64,000 nucleotides of DNA from Thermacetogenium phaeum DSM 12270 (lineage in GTDB: Bacteria; Bacillota; DSM-12270; Thermacetogeniales; Thermacetogeniaceae): assembly GCF_000305935.1 (NCBI RefSeq), contig NC_018870.1:575942-639941 (forward strand), given 5' to 3'. The translations under genes were made by a program, and so were the position numbers. Numbering within the stretch: position 1 is the first letter of the stretch; every line of letters begins with the position of its first letter. Of this stretch, positions 19,447-40,239 are shown piece by piece. The notes under the pieces were generated by a model. The model made no database searches. It was not told the DNA's origin and saw only the letters and a program-made list of their open reading frames with translations.

Positions 19447-19698
19447 GAGAAAACAGGTGATGAAGGGGAGTAGTAGCCATCTGAGGGTCGCCAAGAGAGC
19501 CGGGTTGGGTGCGAGCCGGCCGATACCGGGTGGTGAAGGCGCTCCGGAGCTGCAGGAGGAAACCCCGGGCCGGGGGAGTAAAGCCTGCCGATAATGAGTG
19601 GGCGCTTGAACTAAAGGGTTTAAGCGCCAAACAGGGTGGAACCGCGGGAAATCCCGTCCCTGTAGCCGATTTTGCTGCGTGGGGCGGGTTTTATTTTA
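19447..19698 (+). promoter_or_regulatory. T-box leader (glycine) controlling glyQS
   Basis: The leader has the T-box sequence AGGGTGGAACCGCGGG around 19633-19648, the stem I region with AGAGAGCCGGG and GTGCGAGCCGGC, and a terminator in which CCCGTCCC (19653-19660) pairs with GGGGCGGG (19681-19688) before TTTTATTTT. A GGC codon at 19538-19540, after GAA in the expected specifier position, agrees with glycine. Uncharged tRNA-Gly would stabilise the antiterminator and switch on the two synthetase genes. Confidence 0.93.
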
Positions 19699-33603: not shown

Positions 33604-34242
33604 ATGGCATCGATGAATGATGTGGCTCAGGGCGTCATCGAGGGAAATGTTGATAAGGTGAAAGATTTGACCGCCAGCTTGTTAGAATCGGGCATTGATC
33701 CGCTGGAGATCATCAATCAGGGCCTGATTGTAGGAATGAACACTGTGGGAGAGCGCTTCAAAGCCGGTGATATGTTTGTTCCAGAAGTTTTGATGTGTGC
33801 CAAGGCTATGAGCTCCGGTATGGAGCTAGTCAAATCCAGGCTTGCCGGCAGGAAGGTGCAATCGGCAGGTAAGTTATTGATCGGTACGGTTAAGAGTGAC
33901 CTTCACGATATAGGAAAGAACCTGGTGGCAATGATGGTGGAAAGCGCCGGATTTGAAGTGATAAACCTGGGTGTTGATGTTGATCCCGAGAAATTTGTGA
34001 ATGCCATAAAGGAATATCAACCGGATATCGTGGGGATGTCGGCGTTGCTCACCACAACTCTGCCTTATATGAAGGAGACCATCGAGGCCATTGAAGAGGC
34101 CGGTTTGCGTGATCAGGTGAAGATCATCATTGGTGGCGCTCCTGTTACTCAGAATTACGCCGATCAGATTGGAGCAGACGGTTATGCACCCGAGGCTGCA
34201 TCGGCAACGGAGCTCTGCAAAAAGCTGATGGGGGTTGCTTAG
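33604..34242 (+). CDS. Corrinoid protein of a methyl-transfer system (MttC/MtbC-like)
   Basis: The 212-residue protein has the two-part structure of methyltransferase corrinoid proteins: a helical cap (residues 1-90, with NTVGERFKAGDMFVPEVLMC) and a cobalamin Rossmann domain, with the axial-ligand motif DLHDIGKN around residues 99-106, then INLGVDV, GMSALLTTTLPYMK and KIIIGGAPVT. The bound cobalt accepts a methyl group from a substrate methyltransferase and passes it to tetrahydrofolate through MtgA. RBS GAGGAGGAAG precedes the ATG. It opens the cluster that also holds an MttB-like methyltransferase and an MtgA-like enzyme, its presumed partners. Confidence 0.9.
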   Translation: MASMNDVAQGVIEGNVDKVKDLTASLLESGIDPLEIINQGLIVGMNTVGERFKAGDMFVPEVLMCAKAMSSGMELVKSRLAGRKVQSAGKLLIGTVKSDLHDIGKNLVAMMVESAGFEVINLGVDVDPEKFVNAIKEYQPDIVGMSALLTTTLPYMKETIEAIEEAGLRDQVKIIIGGAPVTQNYADQIGADGYAPEAASATELCKKLMGVA

Positions 34243-34388
34243 TTTATCTGGAAGTAATGAAAGGAAGGGGTGTTCTGACAGGTAGTACCGGGAAGCTATC
34301 GGTTGGAACACCCTCTGGAAATTCTGGAAGCAGCACCGCTGATGGGGGATCATCGCAGTCTCCACAACCCTAAATTAATGAACGGCTT

Positions 34389-35669
34389 TTGTCGCCGTCC
34401 ATGATGGGTGCTCTTAGAGTTGGCGATTTATCTTTTTCTATTAATAAGAAGGGGGAAGGGACATTGGATGCAAGTAGAATGCGGCGTCTGGAGCTGCTGG
34501 ATGCGGATAAAACATTTAAGTTGCTCGGTTACGGCCTAAAGTTGCACAGTCTGGTCGAGGATCTGATTCCCACCCTGGAACATTCCTTCCTGCACAGTCA
34601 GATCAAGGAGTTGGTGGAGACATATTATGACATTGGGAAAGTGACCGATGTTTTTGAGATCTTCGGTGGCTATATTAACCGGAGTTTCGGGATCTATACC
34701 GAAAAAGAGGGGAAAAGATATCGATACTTTGTGCGCAAGTACAAAAAGGATATTGAGGAAAAAGAAATTATGCTGGAGCATAATCTTATCACCTGTGCAA
34801 GGGCTAACGGGCTGAGTATCGCTGCCGGGCTCATACCCGCGAAAAATGGGCGGACCTTTGTCAAATTGACAGAAGGTCTGGATGATAACTCGCAAGACTG
34901 GTACTTCGCTGTTTATGATTTCTTGGAGGGAGAAGACAAGTACACCTGGGTAGAGAACGAGTGCACAGATGAAGAATATGAGAGCGCAGCTGAAGTTCTG
35001 GCTGTTTTTCACAACAGTGTACGCAATTTCGATCCCCAGGGGCTGGAAAGGGTGGAGCTAAAAATTCTGGACTTGCTGCCTACGCTCCCAAAGCTCTTTG
35101 AAAGTTATGCAGCAATGGACATTAAGAACCGGTTCCACGATTACTTTAAGAAAAATTTGCCTGCCATCCTTGATGTCATCAATAAGATCAAGATCCCTGC
35201 TGAAGATGTCGCCAAGATGCCGCTTAACCCCATACACTGTGATTTTCATCCTGGTAACCTAAAATTCAAAGATAATAAAGTGGTGGGAATATTCGATTTT
35301 GATTGGTCTAAGATCGATCTGCGAATATTCGAGATAGGGTTGGCTCTTGTTTATTGCTGCAGTTCTTGGGTGGACGAATTGGATGGGGTTCTCCACCTGG
35401 ATCGCTGCAAGGTCTTTTTGCAGGCCTATCAGAAGAAACTGCGGGAACTGGGTGGCCTCCCTCCTCTTAATGAGACGGAGAAGCGGTATTTGCCGGAAAT
35501 GCTGAACGCCGGTAACATCTATTTGATATTCTGGTGTCTGCGTTCTTATTATGATGACCTAAGCCTTAATGTATATGAATACCTGGCATATCTACAGCAC
35601 CAGGTCAAGTGTATGAATTGGGTTGAGCAGCACCGCCAGGAGATTTTGGACATGGTTGAAGCAATTTAG
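34389..35669 (+). CDS. Aminoglycoside/choline kinase-fold phosphotransferase in the methyl-transfer cluster
   Basis: A 426-residue protein with the eukaryotic-like small-molecule kinase fold (APH/choline kinase/CotS type): nucleotide-binding strands near GGYINRSFGIY, a lysine in FVRKYKK, the catalytic loop HCDFHPGNLKF (around residue 283) and the metal-binding IFDFDW. Residues before about 85 are an extra helical region. The start is uncertain: TTG 34389, ATG 34401 or TTG 34464, the last best placed behind AAGGGGGAAGGG. It sits between the corrinoid protein and the MttB-like gene, on the same strand. I infer that it phosphorylates the amine substrate or a product (choline is one candidate); a spore-coat CotS-type role is the alternative. 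Confidence 0.75.
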   Translation: MSPSMMGALRVGDLSFSINKKGEGTLDASRMRRLELLDADKTFKLLGYGLKLHSLVEDLIPTLEHSFLHSQIKELVETYYDIGKVTDVFEIFGGYINRSFGIYTEKEGKRYRYFVRKYKKDIEEKEIMLEHNLITCARANGLSIAAGLIPAKNGRTFVKLTEGLDDNSQDWYFAVYDFLEGEDKYTWVENECTDEEYESAAEVLAVFHNSVRNFDPQGLERVELKILDLLPTLPKLFESYAAMDIKNRFHDYFKKNLPAILDVINKIKIPAEDVAKMPLNPIHCDFHPGNLKFKDNKVVGIFDFDWSKIDLRIFEIGLALVYCCSSWVDELDGVLHLDRCKVFLQAYQKKLRELGGLPPLNETEKRYLPEMLNAGNIYLIFWCLRSYYDDLSLNVYEYLAYLQHQVKCMNWVEQHRQEILDMVEAI

Positions 35670-35785
35670 TTGTGTTGCTGGCGAAATAATCAGGGTTAAC
35701 TGTGCGAGAGATGTTAAGCGGGGTCATTTTGAGATCCTGAGCACGAGGTCTCCAGGAATAACCTTGAGAAAGGGATGAGAGAACT

Positions 35786-37225
35786 ATGTACCGGTTCGCA
35801 AGCTTCTTCTCTCCAGAGGAAATAGAACAAATACATGAGGCTTCCCTGGAGATTTTAGAAGATGTTGGTTTGTTGGTGCGCAATGAGAAGGCACGTAGTG
35901 TTTTTGCCCGGCGCGGATGCCGGGTGGATAACCAGACGACTCTGGTTAAGATCCCGCGTCAGGTAGTTGAGGACTGTCGGAGCTCTTTTGTTCCTAACTA
36001 TAAATTCATTGCTCAAGACCCTCAATATGATGTCGTCCTCCCCGATGACAGGCCGGTAATCGTAACCGGGAGTTCTGCTCCCAATATTATTGACCCCAAG
36101 ACCGGCGAGGAAAGAAGGGCGACATCTACCGACATTGCCAACATTGCCCATCTGATCAACGAACTGCCGGGCTTTGATGTCTTTTCCATCTCTACGCTTG
36201 CCGATGACGCTCCTGAGGGCCAGTTTGCCCTTTCCCGCTTCTACCCCGCCTTGAAAAACTGCAAGAAGCCGGTGAGAAGCAACACACCGACCATTAAGGA
36301 TCTAGAAATGGTACTGGAGCTGGGAGAGATCATCGCGGGGAGCAAAGAAGCATATATGGAAAGGCCATTTATCAACCATCACTACTGCCCGGTGGTTTCA
36401 CCACTCACGATGGATGTGGAATCCACTGAAGCGATAATCTACCTCACCGAGAAGGGACTCCCTGTATACGGGACGATTGTTCCTAATGCCGGGATGTCCG
36501 CACCTATGAGTTTGATGGGGACTCTGGTGCTGGGCAACGCCGAGTTCCTTGCTCTAAGTACATTGATTCAATCAATCCGCCCGGGAGCTCCGATGATATA
36601 TGCGGTTCTATCCACCGTCGCGGATATGCGGACAGGGGACTATGCGCCCGGAGCGATCGAAACCGGTATTCTTCAGATGGCACACACGGAGATGGCAAGA
36701 TTCTACAATGTTCCCTCCGGTGGCTATATCGGCCTTACTAACTCCCATTGTAATGACGCACAGTCCGGGTATGAAACCGGGATGAATGTCACCGCTGCTC
36801 TGCTGGCCGGAGCAGATCTTTTCAATATGGGTGGACTCTTAAGCAGTCTGATGACCTTTGACTATGCCAAAGCGGTTATCGATAATGAGATAGCCTTGAT
36901 GTTAAAGCGAATCACAAGAGGTATGGAATTCAGCAAGGAGAATATGTGCCTGGATCTCATCAAGGAAGTCGGACCCGGTGGGAACTATATGGACAAGATG
37001 CATACGCTCAAGAACATGAAAACGACAGCAGTACTGCCGAAGGTGGCGAACCGGCAGGGGCGCGGGCACTGGGAGGAAGAAGGGCGCCCCGACTCTCATG
37101 CCCGCGCCCTGGCAGAGGCCAAAAAGATTCTCATGCAGGACAATCCCGCCCGCTTCCCGGCAGAACTGGACGCCAAGATCCGTTCCCACTTCCCAGGTAT
37201 TGTCCCCGGGGATTGCAAGTGGTAA
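35786..37225 (+). CDS. MttB-family methyltransferase without pyrrolysine
   Basis: A 479-residue member of the trimethylamine methyltransferase (MttB) superfamily, recognisable by EEIEQIHEASLEILEDVGLL, the glycine-rich barrel strands (GTIVPNAGMSAPMSLMGTLV; SGGYIGLTNSHCNDAQSGYE) and the C-terminal AKKILMQDNPARFP. True MttB needs a UAG-encoded pyrrolysine mid-protein; this frame runs through without an amber codon, so it belongs to the non-Pyl branch that includes glycine betaine (MtgB), proline betaine (MtpB) and carnitine (MtcB) methyltransferases. It should move a methyl group from a quaternary amine to the upstream corrinoid protein. Start ATG has AAAGGGATGAGAG upstream. Substrate not predictable. 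Confidence 0.9.
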   Translation: MYRFASFFSPEEIEQIHEASLEILEDVGLLVRNEKARSVFARRGCRVDNQTTLVKIPRQVVEDCRSSFVPNYKFIAQDPQYDVVLPDDRPVIVTGSSAPNIIDPKTGEERRATSTDIANIAHLINELPGFDVFSISTLADDAPEGQFALSRFYPALKNCKKPVRSNTPTIKDLEMVLELGEIIAGSKEAYMERPFINHHYCPVVSPLTMDVESTEAIIYLTEKGLPVYGTIVPNAGMSAPMSLMGTLVLGNAEFLALSTLIQSIRPGAPMIYAVLSTVADMRTGDYAPGAIETGILQMAHTEMARFYNVPSGGYIGLTNSHCNDAQSGYETGMNVTAALLAGADLFNMGGLLSSLMTFDYAKAVIDNEIALMLKRITRGMEFSKENMCLDLIKEVGPGGNYMDKMHTLKNMKTTAVLPKVANRQGRGHWEEEGRPDSHARALAEAKKILMQDNPARFPAELDAKIRSHFPGIVPGDCKW

Positions 37226-37248
37226 AGTTATGTTATGGCAGACCCTCA

Positions 37249-37430
37249 CGCCGCCTGGGGCGGCACCAACAGAGGAACGAAAAAAGGGTTTATCCTTGCC
37301 GGCGCAGCGACCTGACGGGGGTTGTTACTCACCCTTGACGAAGGAGCAACAAACGGCAGCCGAATCGAGACAGGATGTCGAGATAGGCGACTCTGTGCCA
37401 GGGTAGGCGCATAGGAGCCGGTCGGCTGCT
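37249..37430 (+). ncRNA. Structured intergenic element, copy A
   Basis: A hairpin GCCGCC-TGG-GGCGGC (37250-37264) is followed by ACCAACAGAGGAACGAAAAA. A stem AAGGGT (37284-37289) / ACCCTT (37331-37336) encloses CCGGCGCAGCGACCTGACGG, and an 8-bp stem GCAGCCGA/TCGGCTGC closes the 3' part. The same order, with different stem sequences, recurs at 38597-38760 on the other side of mtgA. Compensatory differences in two stems with fixed loop sequence argue for a folded RNA. No known family recognised. It starts about 25 bases after the mttB-like gene and lies upstream of the predicted mtgA promoter. The strand is assumed from the genes around it. Confidence 0.55.
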
Positions 37431-37527
37431 TATCTATCGACGAGTCTTAGGGCGAGTTAAACCGAAAGATCCGGGAGCAAGCGCAAGGATAAACCGAAAC
37501 GTATTTTCATGACAGCCAAGTGCTTTG

Positions 37528-37556
37528 TTGTTGATGATGTTTTTAAGTAGTATAAC
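37528..37556 (+). promoter_or_regulatory. Predicted promoter of mtgA
   Basis: TTGTTG (37528-37533) and TATAAC (37551-37556), 17 bases apart, lie 36 bases upstream of the mtgA start. Confidence 0.5.
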
Positions 37557-37592
37557 TGCTTTCCGGAAAGAGCAGAGAGAAGGAGGATTCCA

Positions 37593-38390
37593 ATGCTGAT
37601 CGTAGGTGAACTGATCAACGCCAGCCGCAAGCCCATCGCCGCGGCCATAGAGGCACAGGACGTGGAAGCCATCAAGAAAGTGGCCAGGGACCAGTATGAA
37701 GCCGGAGCGGACTACATCGACGTCAACGCCGGCATCTTCGTGGGCAAAGAAGCCGAATACATGGAATGGCTGATCAGGAACGTCCAGGAAGAAGTGGATG
37801 CGCCCTGCTGCATCGACAGCCCCGATCCCAAAGTGATCGAGAGGGGGCTGGCGGTGCATAAAGGAACGGCCATGATCAACTCCATCTCCCTGGAAAAGGA
37901 CCGCTACGACGCCCTTCTGCCCATCGTGGCGGGGACGGACCTGAAAGTTGTGGCCCTCTGCATGAGCGACGAAGGGATGCCGGAGACCGCAGAAGACAGA
38001 GTGAAAATCGCCGAAAAGCTGATCGACGGCCTGGTGCGGAACAACGTCAAACTGGAGAACATCTACGTTGACCCCCTGGTTCAGCCGGTATCCACGAAGA
38101 GCACCTTTGGGGTGGAGTTTCTCAATGCAGTCGAAGAGATCATGGAGAGATTCCAAGGGGTTCACACCATCTGCGGGCTCTCCAACATCTCCTACGGATT
38201 GCCGGTGCGGAAGCTTCTGAACCAGAACTTTGCCGTCATGGCCGTGGCCAAAGGGCTGGACAGCCTCATCATCAACCCTCTCGACAAGCAGATGATGGCC
38301 AATCTCATCGCCGCCGAAGCCCTTGCCGGGAGGGACGAATACTGCGTCAACTATCTGAAGGCCTACCGCCAGAAGAAGTTCGAATTCTAA
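37593..38390 (+). CDS. mtgA: Methyltetrahydrofolate:corrinoid methyltransferase, MtgA-like
   Basis: A 265-residue TIM-barrel of the pterin-binding family, shown by LIVGELINASRKPIAAAI, GADYIDVNAGI, CCIDSPDP, INSISLEKDRYDAL, VDPLVQPVS and GLSNISYGLP. It should transfer the methyl group of the corrinoid protein to tetrahydrofolate, or the reverse as in AcsE, feeding methyl-THF into the Wood-Ljungdahl pathway. The short length and the cluster context suit the MtgA type of glycine betaine systems. RBS GAAGGAGG precedes the ATG. It has its own promoter and terminator and is flanked by copies A and B of the structured element. Confidence 0.88.
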   Translation: MLIVGELINASRKPIAAAIEAQDVEAIKKVARDQYEAGADYIDVNAGIFVGKEAEYMEWLIRNVQEEVDAPCCIDSPDPKVIERGLAVHKGTAMINSISLEKDRYDALLPIVAGTDLKVVALCMSDEGMPETAEDRVKIAEKLIDGLVRNNVKLENIYVDPLVQPVSTKSTFGVEFLNAVEEIMERFQGVHTICGLSNISYGLPVRKLLNQNFAVMAVAKGLDSLIINPLDKQMMANLIAAEALAGRDEYCVNYLKAYRQKKFEF

Positions 38391-38428
38391 CTCCGTCTTT
38401 GAGAGATAACAACCCCCCCTTATTAAAA

Positions 38429-38462
38429 CCCCTCCTCACCGTGAGGAGGGGCTATCTTATTA
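38429..38462 (+). terminator. Terminator after mtgA
   Basis: CCCCTCCTCAC-C-GTGAGGAGGGG is a perfect 11-bp hairpin (38429-38451). The following CTATCTTATTAATT is only moderately T-rich. Confidence 0.65.
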
Positions 38463-38596
38463 ATTATAAGAGATTTTCTTCGGATTAATTCTCGTACCTA
38501 TCGAAAGAGCATCTTTGATTGTTTAAAATGGATTATGAAGCAAACGGGGGGCAAACTGAGGAGAAGGTGTGATTATAAGTGGTAGTAGACTAACAT

Positions 38597-38775
38597 GCCG
38601 CCATCAGCGGCACCAAAAGAGGAACGAAAAATACCCGGCGGGTCTACCGGCGAGCGACCTATGGAAGGCCGGGTAACAGGACAGGCAACTTGTTACGCAG
38701 CATCCCAGAGCTGTCCCGAAGCGAGCCGTCGTCCTGTCCGGCCTGGAATCGGGAGTCGAGCGGCAGACCGGCGGG
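38597..38775 (+). ncRNA. Structured intergenic element, copy B
   Basis: Hairpin GCCGC-CATCA-GCGGC (38597-38611) is followed by ACCAAAAGAGGAACGAAAAA, almost identical to copy A. Stem TACCCGGC (38632-38639) / GCCGGGTA (38668-38675) encloses ACCGGCGAGCGACCTATGG, and GGACAGG/CCTGTCC (38679-38685/38733-38739) follows. It ends about 90 bases before the HAD phosphatase gene and after the mtgA terminator, so it may be the leader of the HAD-PHP transcript or a separate small RNA. Confidence 0.55.
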
Positions 38776-38863
38776 TGAACTTGCTGTATTTTTATAGCAG
38801 TTATGAGAAAGACCGGATGTGAGGGTTAGGATGTATCGGCTGCAGTGAATGAGGAGGATTGTG

Positions 38864-39517
38864 ATGGGCCTTGCGATGTTCGATTATGACGGAGTTATTG
38901 TTGATTCCTTCGATCAGGTGGCGCGCGATTTCGCGGAAGCATGCCGGGCAAACGGCTTTTATGGTATCAATACTAAGGAAGACCTGGCAATTTTGCATGA
39001 CGGCAACTGCTATGAACAAATGATGAAGCTGGGGCTTCCGGAATGGAAGGTGGACAAGATCATTAGGGATTATGAAGCCATTGCTGAGAACCATCTTGAG
39101 GAAATTCCCCTCTTTGAGGGGATGGCCGAGGCCCTTCGGTTGATCGCCGGCCGACATAAGATTGTCATCATTACCTCGAATATTTCAGAGCAGGTGCGGA
39201 ATGTTTTAAAAAAACGAGGGATTACTTGCATTGAGGATGTCATAGGAGCCGAACTCGAGAAGAGTAAGGTAAAAAAGATCCGCAGGGTTATGCAGCTTTA
39301 CTCCATTTTCCCTGCTTACTATATCGGAGATACCGTAGGAGATATTGTCGAAGGGAGGGAGGCGGGGGCTCTTACCGTTGGTGTTGCCTGGGGCTGGCAT
39401 GACCGGGAAAGGTTAGAAAGCGTTTCTCCGGATTATCTCGTGTCCACACCTCAGGAACTGGCAGCGGTTTTGTGCAGCAGGCCGGAGCGGGAGCAGAATA
39501 ACGGGAGGAGGGACTGA
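38864..39517 (+). CDS. HAD-superfamily phosphatase
   Basis: A 217-residue HAD hydrolase with the nucleophile motif FDYDGVIVDS (motif I), a helical cap, motif II VIITSN, motif III lysine near EKSKVKKI, and motif IV YYIGDTVGDIVEGREAG. It belongs to the phosphoglycolate phosphatase/beta-phosphoglucomutase-like group and should dephosphorylate a small metabolite. I use the ATG at 38864, since GAGGAGG at 38851-38857 is well spaced for it, not the longer frame at 38849. A PHP phosphoesterase gene follows 2 bases after its stop. Its neighbours suggest a role with the kinase-containing methyl-transfer cluster, but the substrate is unknown. Confidence 0.82.
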   Translation: MGLAMFDYDGVIVDSFDQVARDFAEACRANGFYGINTKEDLAILHDGNCYEQMMKLGLPEWKVDKIIRDYEAIAENHLEEIPLFEGMAEALRLIAGRHKIVIITSNISEQVRNVLKKRGITCIEDVIGAELEKSKVKKIRRVMQLYSIFPAYYIGDTVGDIVEGREAGALTVGVAWGWHDRERLESVSPDYLVSTPQELAAVLCSRPEREQNNGRRD

Positions 39518-39519
39518 GC

Positions 39520-40239
39520 ATGAAACTGGAGGCGGATCTGCATACTCATACCATTGCCAGCGGACACGCATACAGCACTCTAAATGAAATGGTGGCGACT
39601 GCCCGGGAGAAGGGCTTGAAGATGCTTGCTATTACTGACCACGACAACCGGATGCCAGGTGGACCAGATCTTGAATATTTTTTCAACATGGCCATTTGGC
39701 CGAGAGAAATTCAAGGGGTAAGAGTGCTCAGGGGCGTGGAAACGAATATTGTTGATGATGTCAGGGGCGTCGATCTCCCGGAGGAACTGCTGGACCGAAT
39801 GGACATAGTCCTGGCCGGTTTTCACGCTGATGCCGGGTATCTTGGCCATTCGGTGGAAGAAAATACCAGGGCGATGGTTGCTGCCCTTCGTAACCCTAAG
39901 GTGCACATAATTACCCACCCTGGAAATCCGCGTTTTCCGGTCGATCTGAAGAAGGTTGTTTTGGCTGCCAAGGAATATGGCAAGGTCCTGGAAATAAACA
40001 ACAGTTCCTTTCTGGTGCGGCCCAAAAGTGCCCCTCGCTGTCTGGAGTTGGCCAGACTGGCCAGGCGGTACGGTGTGCCGGTGGCCATCAACAGCGATGC
40101 CCATATCTGCTTTCAGGTCGGGGATTGCAGCGAGGCGGTTCAGTTAGCCGTCCAGGCCGGCATCGAAGAGGATGCCGTTTTGAATTCCTCTGCGGTTCGG
40201 GTGCGGGATTATCTTGCCCGGCACGGAAAAGTTATATGA
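39520..40239 (+). CDS. PHP-domain phosphoesterase (YcdX-like)
   Basis: A 239-residue PHP protein with the metal-binding signatures DLHTHT (near residue 6), AITDHDNR, GVETNI, AGFHADAG, ITHPGNP and NSDAHI, consistent with a trinuclear site as in YcdX and related phosphatases. It would hydrolyse a phosphate monoester in the cytoplasm. The start is 2 bases after the HAD gene, preceded by GGGAGGAGG inside that gene's end, so the two are co-translated. Two phosphatases following a kinase is unusual in a methyltransferase cluster and is discussed under findings. Confidence 0.85.
   Translation: MKLEADLHTHTIASGHAYSTLNEMVATAREKGLKMLAITDHDNRMPGGPDLEYFFNMAIWPREIQGVRVLRGVETNIVDDVRGVDLPEELLDRMDIVLAGFHADAGYLGHSVEENTRAMVAALRNPKVHIITHPGNPRFPVDLKKVVLAAKEYGKVLEINNSSFLVRPKSAPRCLELARLARRYGVPVAINSDAHICFQVGDCSEAVQLAVQAGIEEDAVLNSSAVRVRDYLARHGKVI

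Follow-up and report, generated by a model that had tools for sequence, protein, structure and literature searches.

Under anaerobic conditions, choline, an abundant compound, is best known for being cleaved to trimethylamine. Thermacetogenium phaeum is a thermophilic acetogen and also a syntrophic acetate oxidiser. Here, we describe a gene cluster in a 64,000-nucleotide stretch of the T. phaeum DSM 12270 genome (the window; positions 575,942-639,941 of the single 2,939,057-bp contig). The cluster codes for a corrinoid protein, a kinase, an MttB-superfamily methyltransferase, a tetrahydrofolate (THF) methyltransferase, a HAD phosphatase, and a PHP-domain phosphoesterase. The closest described system is the corrinoid-dependent choline demethylation (Mth) system of Eubacterium limosum. 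The kinase MthK phosphorylates choline, MthB methylates the corrinoid protein MthC with phosphocholine but not with choline, and MthA then methylates THF (Jiang et al. 2025, PMC12155760). According to that study, homologues of mthK and mthB are co-localised in Clostridia, Negativicutes, and deltaproteobacteria; one of the organisms is Sporomusa malonica, which uses choline. The MttB members without pyrrolysine that have tested substrates act on quaternary amines (PMC12155760). Supplementary tables aside, the text of that paper names neither Thermacetogenium nor a HAD or PHP phosphatase, and ethanolamine and microcompartments appear in its reference list only. T. phaeum itself grows on ethanolamine, with 18 of its 20 ethanolamine utilization (EUT) genes induced (Keller et al. 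2019, PMC6436200).

An earlier, sequence-only reading of this DNA proposed that a compound is phosphorylated and later dephosphorylated, for example phosphocholine or another phosphorylated methylamine that is handled or demethylated as the ester, and knew of no described methyltransferase system of this composition. The latter statement no longer holds, as MthK, MthB, MthC, and MthA of E. limosum were characterised in 2025 (PMC12155760). The former fits our results, and homology to the Mth system together with gene neighbourhoods makes phosphocholine the likely substrate. We consider it likely that the cluster is a variant of the Mth system, in which a kinase would phosphorylate choline, the ester would be demethylated, and the product would enter the EUT pathway once the phosphate is removed. 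Two observations go beyond that reading: the MttB protein belongs to a clade different from that of MthB, and the clusters are linked to EUT genes and to pyrrolysine-containing MttB genes. Genomes and loci are designated below by our G and L numbers where they have to be told apart.

The kinase and its methyltransferase partner

The kinase gene (34467-35669, + strand) codes for an APH-fold protein of the MthK (choline kinase) family. Its start is probably the TTG at 34467, replacing 34389, as judged by alignment with relatives. The protein is 38% identical to E. limosum MthK over 401 residues (E=3e-104). The E. limosum reference is a genome taken as such because it has over 40 MttB candidates and its mth genes stand in the published order; it contains a single kinase of the MthK family, located in the published arrangement. 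The catalytic motifs HCDFHPGN and DFDW are strongly conserved in the alignment. The AlphaFold model has a pLDDT of 91, and its Foldseek matches include choline kinases and the aminopropanol kinase 6ef6. The Pfam profile search of the window kinase gave PF01636 only and no match to PF01633 (LicA and eukaryotic-type choline kinases). The best kinase tree placed E. limosum MthK with the Thermacetogeniaceae kinases, with a support of 89/76 that is not decisive.

With the kinase alignment as query, 79 loci were retrieved from 84,980 species genomes. In 47 of them, an MttB-superfamily gene lies at most 5 kb from the kinase, and in 39 a relative of the window MttB, belonging to the clade that we call W, lies at most 3 kb away. 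Among 20 genomes of the window's family, a close MttB orthologue (79-83% identity) is present in five, and the kinase lies near it in all five; the next-best MttB in the family genomes reaches 37% identity. A sixth family genome (G009) shows nothing more than a partial kinase gene where a contig ends. Chance does not explain the kinase-MttB pairing, because all five of the 20 genomes with the MttB orthologue also have the kinase. This bears out the suggestion that the kinase belongs with the methyltransferase. It could alternatively have been a spore-coat protein, an explanation for which we obtained no support: the window kinase did not match the CotS profile (TIGR02906) at 1e-3, and the 47 MttB neighbourhoods argue against it.

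The methyltransferase gene (35786-37225, + strand) matches the MTTB profile (PF06253; COG5598 superfamily) with 293 bits against a cut-off of 25. It has no internal stop codon and codes for Leu317 at the pyrrolysine position, so the enzyme is correctly described as a non-pyrrolysine MttB homologue. T. phaeum has seven full-length MttB-superfamily genes, two of them with an in-frame TAG (L162, L003, L006, L007). In a tree of 80 MttB sequences, clade W (100% SH-aLRT) forms a long branch apart from the MthB clade. Its members are 59-83% identical to the window MttB, which is 29% identical to E. limosum MthB. No MthB-type gene was found in the T. phaeum genome at E<=1e-80. A search of the E. limosum group (E<=1e-100) gave no orthologue of the window MttB, which shows that clade W is not MthB. 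Clade W occurs with the same kinase family in Thermacetogeniaceae, Desulfosporosinus, Sporomusa, Acetobacterium, deltaproteobacteria (putatively from termite gut), Actinomycetota, and Chloroflexota.

The main argument that clade W would take phosphocholine is that one kinase family is paired with two unrelated methyltransferases, and that one choline user has only W. The first part is exemplified by G015, which has two kinases of the family, one beside an MttB that is 54% identical to E. limosum MthB and the other beside clade W. The kinase beside the MthB-type protein is 61-62% identical to the window kinase, while its MttB is 28% identical to the window MttB. The second part is S. malonica, whose one family kinase stands beside a W MttB (75%) and whose genome gave no MthB-type match at E<=1e-80. 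The positions common to W and MthB and rare elsewhere (E18, H198, T331, and L355) are too few for a phosphate site to be assigned.

The methylcorrinoid:THF methyltransferase gene (mtrH; 37593-38390, + strand) codes for an MthA/MtgA-like protein that matches PRK07535 with 358.7 bits (cut-off 259). It is 66-87% identical to the protein encoded at the corresponding position in relatives and 38% identical to E. limosum MthA. As a first step, then, the MthK-family kinase would phosphorylate choline. Clade-W MttB would demethylate phosphocholine to N,N-dimethylaminoethanol phosphate, with the corrinoid protein as methyl acceptor, and the MtrH/MthA-like protein would pass the methyl group on to THF for the Wood-Ljungdahl pathway. 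Homology and the exchange of partners around the kinase make it very probable that these three steps hold for the T. phaeum proteins.

Phosphatases, ethanolamine utilization, and pyrrolysine

The HAD phosphatase gene (38864-39517, + strand; HAD_2) probably starts at the ATG at 38864, replacing 38849. Its motifs DxD, ITSN, K, and GDTxGD are intact and invariant in the orthologues from G015, Desulfosporosinus, and Sporomusa. HAD and EUT or bacterial microcompartment (BMC) genes were counted by tblastn over the 41 kinase loci with W and the 38 without it. A HAD gene was present in 22/41 W loci vs 4/38 others. It lies downstream of mtrH in Bacillota; the deltaproteobacteria have another HAD type upstream of the kinase. 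The PHP gene (39520-40239, + strand) directly adjoins the HAD gene and codes for a YcdX-type phosphoesterase (match to E. coli YcdX, 1m65, E=3e-56). We found it at one other kinase locus only (L048, in the related genome G006), that is, in one of the 41 W loci outside the window; it was dropped as a module member and is probably a passenger. Thus, of the two phosphatases that had been assigned to the module, the HAD protein stays and the PHP protein, confined to T. phaeum and G006, does not. The fourth step, in which the HAD phosphatase would free the amino alcohol, is reasonably probable from the gene neighbourhoods.

EUT/BMC genes were found in 23/41 W loci vs 3/38 kinase loci without W, and one of these three loci ends at the kinase, so that W is not visible there. 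When only loci of at least 15 kb were considered, the counts were 19/24 and 2/16, respectively. EutB was present in 28/28 non-Chloroflexota W genomes examined outside the window's family and in 0/3 Chloroflexota. Within the family, it was present in four of the five W genomes and in none of the 15 without W. The gene order differs between lineages. In Desulfosporosinus it is EutB-EutC-EutA-PocR-CorP-kinase-W MttB-CorP-MtrH-HAD-RamA, and in Acetobacterium kinase-EamA-W-CorP-MtrH, followed by BMC, EutS, EutP, and EutVW genes. In the putatively termite-gut deltaproteobacteria, a pyrrolysine-MttB-HAD-kinase-EamA-W-kinase series lies divergently to EUT genes. In the relative G001, a kinase-W cluster (L074) occurs along with microcompartment shell genes, but EutB is absent; its microcompartment locus (L164) looks unlike EUT.

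The EUT locus of T. phaeum (717-736 kb) is headed by a TAG-containing MttB gene, a corrinoid protein gene, a PF01633 choline/ethanolamine kinase gene, and an EamA gene. The EUT locus of G006 has the same type of head, minus EamA. In G008, one 26-kb contig carries a second kinase of the PF01633 type, followed by EUT genes, pylB-pylC-pylSn, and kinase-EamA-W-CorP. In G015, a TAG-MttB gene, a corrinoid protein gene, and a homologue of the second kinase lie by the W cluster, with pylB-pylC-pylSn after the HAD gene. Pyrrolysine-MttB genes at EUT genes or in the W cluster were also found in several deltaproteobacteria. The EUT-linked pyrrolysine MttBs form clades of their own in the tree, apart from another pyrrolysine-MttB group that we take to be trimethylamine enzymes. 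We infer that they would act on the tertiary amine left by phosphocholine demethylation. In genomes that have them, the remaining N-methyl groups would be removed, and ethanolamine would enter the EUT microcompartment; this fifth step, to which the gene neighbourhoods point, is in our judgement evenly balanced.

An EamA transporter of the choline-linked (LicB) type is present in many clusters. A small unannotated winged-helix-like ORF (93-97 aa) stands between EamA and W in many clusters (L066-L101); the T. phaeum copy follows the EamA gene of the EUT locus and has no Pfam match. The same locus has a transposase-like ORF that separates eutS from eutP.

Layout of the T. phaeum cluster and the dispersed repeat

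All six ORFs were confirmed on the + strand by an ORF and profile check of the window, as had been read from the sequence, with the starts of the kinase and HAD genes shifted. The corrinoid protein gene (33604-34242, + strand; Pfam B12-binding and B12-binding_2) stands first. Its product is MtgC/MthC-like and in the tree groups with the corrinoid proteins of EUT-linked pyrrolysine-MttB genes; it is 72% identical to the EUT-locus copy of the same genome (L158:10190-10828). The W-linked corrinoid proteins of relatives group with MthC (support 90). Their mthC-type gene lies directly 3′ of the W mttB, and is absent beside the T. phaeum mttB (the search for it did not extend to other parts of the genome).

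The site of that gene is occupied in T. phaeum by a copy of a dispersed repeat of about 270 bp (37240-37510, + strand), recognised by motif search and alignment. A divergent second copy was found by alignment at 38590-38800 (+ strand). The six genes are co-directional and loosely packed, with the repeat copies separating mttB from mtrH and mtrH from the HAD gene. The core motif of the repeat occurs at 32 genomic places with up to three mismatches and at 21 with up to one, while the reversed control gave none. This intergenic repeat occurs as two variants, among the copies in the window and at L148-L157. One copy (L155) passes the cut-off of the Rfam family TwoAYGGAY (48.6 vs 43), and the others score 30-38; for the window copies flanking mtrH, Rfam gave a weak TwoAYGGAY match and nothing else. 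A terminator-like hairpin lies 3′ of mtrH (38429-38451, + strand; -22.8 kcal/mol, z -5.3). Because this hairpin is strong, the HAD and PHP genes may form a separate transcription unit. Elsewhere in the window, a cobalamin riboswitch (1854-2036, +) and a T-box leader (19451-19664, +) were recognised.

Competing explanations and comparison with known systems

Taken in full, the results would describe a new anaerobic pathway, in which choline is converted to ethanolamine while phosphorylated, by the kinase, clade W, the own-clade pyrrolysine-MttB acting on dimethylaminoethanol phosphate, HAD, and EUT. All choline carbons would be used without trimethylamine, and clade W would have arisen independently of MthB. 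We put this forward tentatively, with slightly less than even prospects. Several points weigh against it and against the choline reading in general. The activity of clade W is a prediction for proteins at 29% identity to MthB. The loci behind the linkage counts are not phylogenetically independent, 12 of the 41 W loci being Desulfosporosinus, and p-values for these counts are no more than indicative. The T. phaeum mttB has no adjoining MthC-type gene, the LicB-like EamA gene of the EUT locus carries an in-frame TAA (L158:12499-12501, genome ~716.5 kb), and the EUT locus lies about 100 kb from the window cluster. The missing neighbour and the interrupted EamA gene make the T. phaeum copy look rearranged, and with the distant EUT locus they suggest that this strain may have an impaired or rewired pathway. 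No mention of choline was found in the T. phaeum literature searched, and the organism reportedly neither degrades betaine nor grows on trimethylamine (PMC3551663).

The strongest competitor is that only the E. limosum chemistry takes place, with one demethylation of phosphocholine and excretion of N,N-dimethylaminoethanol (DMAE), and that HAD, PHP, and EUT are incidental or share regulation or B12 supply. The E. limosum pathway ends at DMAE, one per choline, and no phosphatase is needed because MthK recycles the phosphate (PMC12155760); its locus has no HAD gene. HAD is also missing from the Acetobacterium and G001 clusters, and B12 is required by both EUT and corrinoid demethylation. Nevertheless, the EUT linkage recurs across Bacillota families and deltaproteobacteria in differing gene orders, HADs of two different types accompany the kinase, and the loci also contain pyrrolysine-MttB and pyl genes, which renders this explanation rather unlikely. 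It is unlikely, too, that clade W acts on another phosphorylated quaternary or tertiary amine, such as N,N-dimethylaminoethanol phosphate or a choline analogue, with a kinase of different specificity. The separate clades of W and MthB would agree with this, and so would G015, where two enzymes for phosphocholine would make one of them redundant. However, S. malonica uses choline and has W and no MthB-type gene, the kinases from the two pairings share about 60% identity within the window's family, and the tested pyrrolysine-free MttB members have quaternary amines as substrates (PMC12155760).

The genome paper lists Tph_c05860 and Tph_c05880, probably genes of the window cluster, as tri-/dimethylamine methyltransferases (PMC3551663). 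That paper's assumption would make the cluster a mis-annotated one for the demethylation of trimethylamine or glycine betaine, to which the kinase is unrelated. This is highly improbable: the best PDB match of the MttB is the glycine betaine methyltransferase 9yce, but the protein lacks pyrrolysine and scores 382 bits against TIGR02369 (trimethylamine methyltransferase; cut-off 525), the organism reportedly uses neither compound, and the kinase is conserved with W across phyla.

Should W be a second enzyme that demethylates phosphocholine, choline use without trimethylamine would extend beyond the E. limosum enzyme to Sporomusa, Desulfosporosinus, Acetobacterium, termite-gut deltaproteobacteria, and Chloroflexota. 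The link to EUT and pyrrolysine-MttB, if true, unites three separately studied systems in one testable pathway and assigns a substrate to so far unassigned MttB clades. It would also offer a possible reason for the tri-/dimethylamine methyltransferase annotations in an organism that does not grow on trimethylamine.

Among known systems, the aminopropanol kinase 6ef6 resembles the window kinase as an APH-fold amino-alcohol kinase adjoining a microcompartment, but is 14% identical to it by fold alignment, and its system is, to our knowledge, without a methyltransferase. MtgB with MtgC and MtgA shares the pyrrolysine-free MttB fold, the corrinoid protein, and the MtgA-like protein, and differs in its substrate, glycine betaine; we know of no kinase or phosphatase in this module. 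The EUT microcompartment of T. phaeum is the proposed acceptor of the demethylated product. It adjoins the W cluster in relatives but not in T. phaeum, and we found no earlier link to choline demethylation in the literature. The Mth system shares with the cluster the kinase family, the inferred substrate phosphocholine, and the set of kinase, MttB-superfamily enzyme, corrinoid protein, and THF methyltransferase, often with EamA. It differs in that the window MttB is of another clade, a HAD phosphatase is added, the T. phaeum corrinoid protein is of another subgroup and located upstream, and the linkage to the EUT microcompartment and pyrrolysine-MttB goes unmentioned in the Mth paper. The principle of a kinase plus a methyltransferase is thus already known, and the new part worth testing is the wider ethanolamine pathway.

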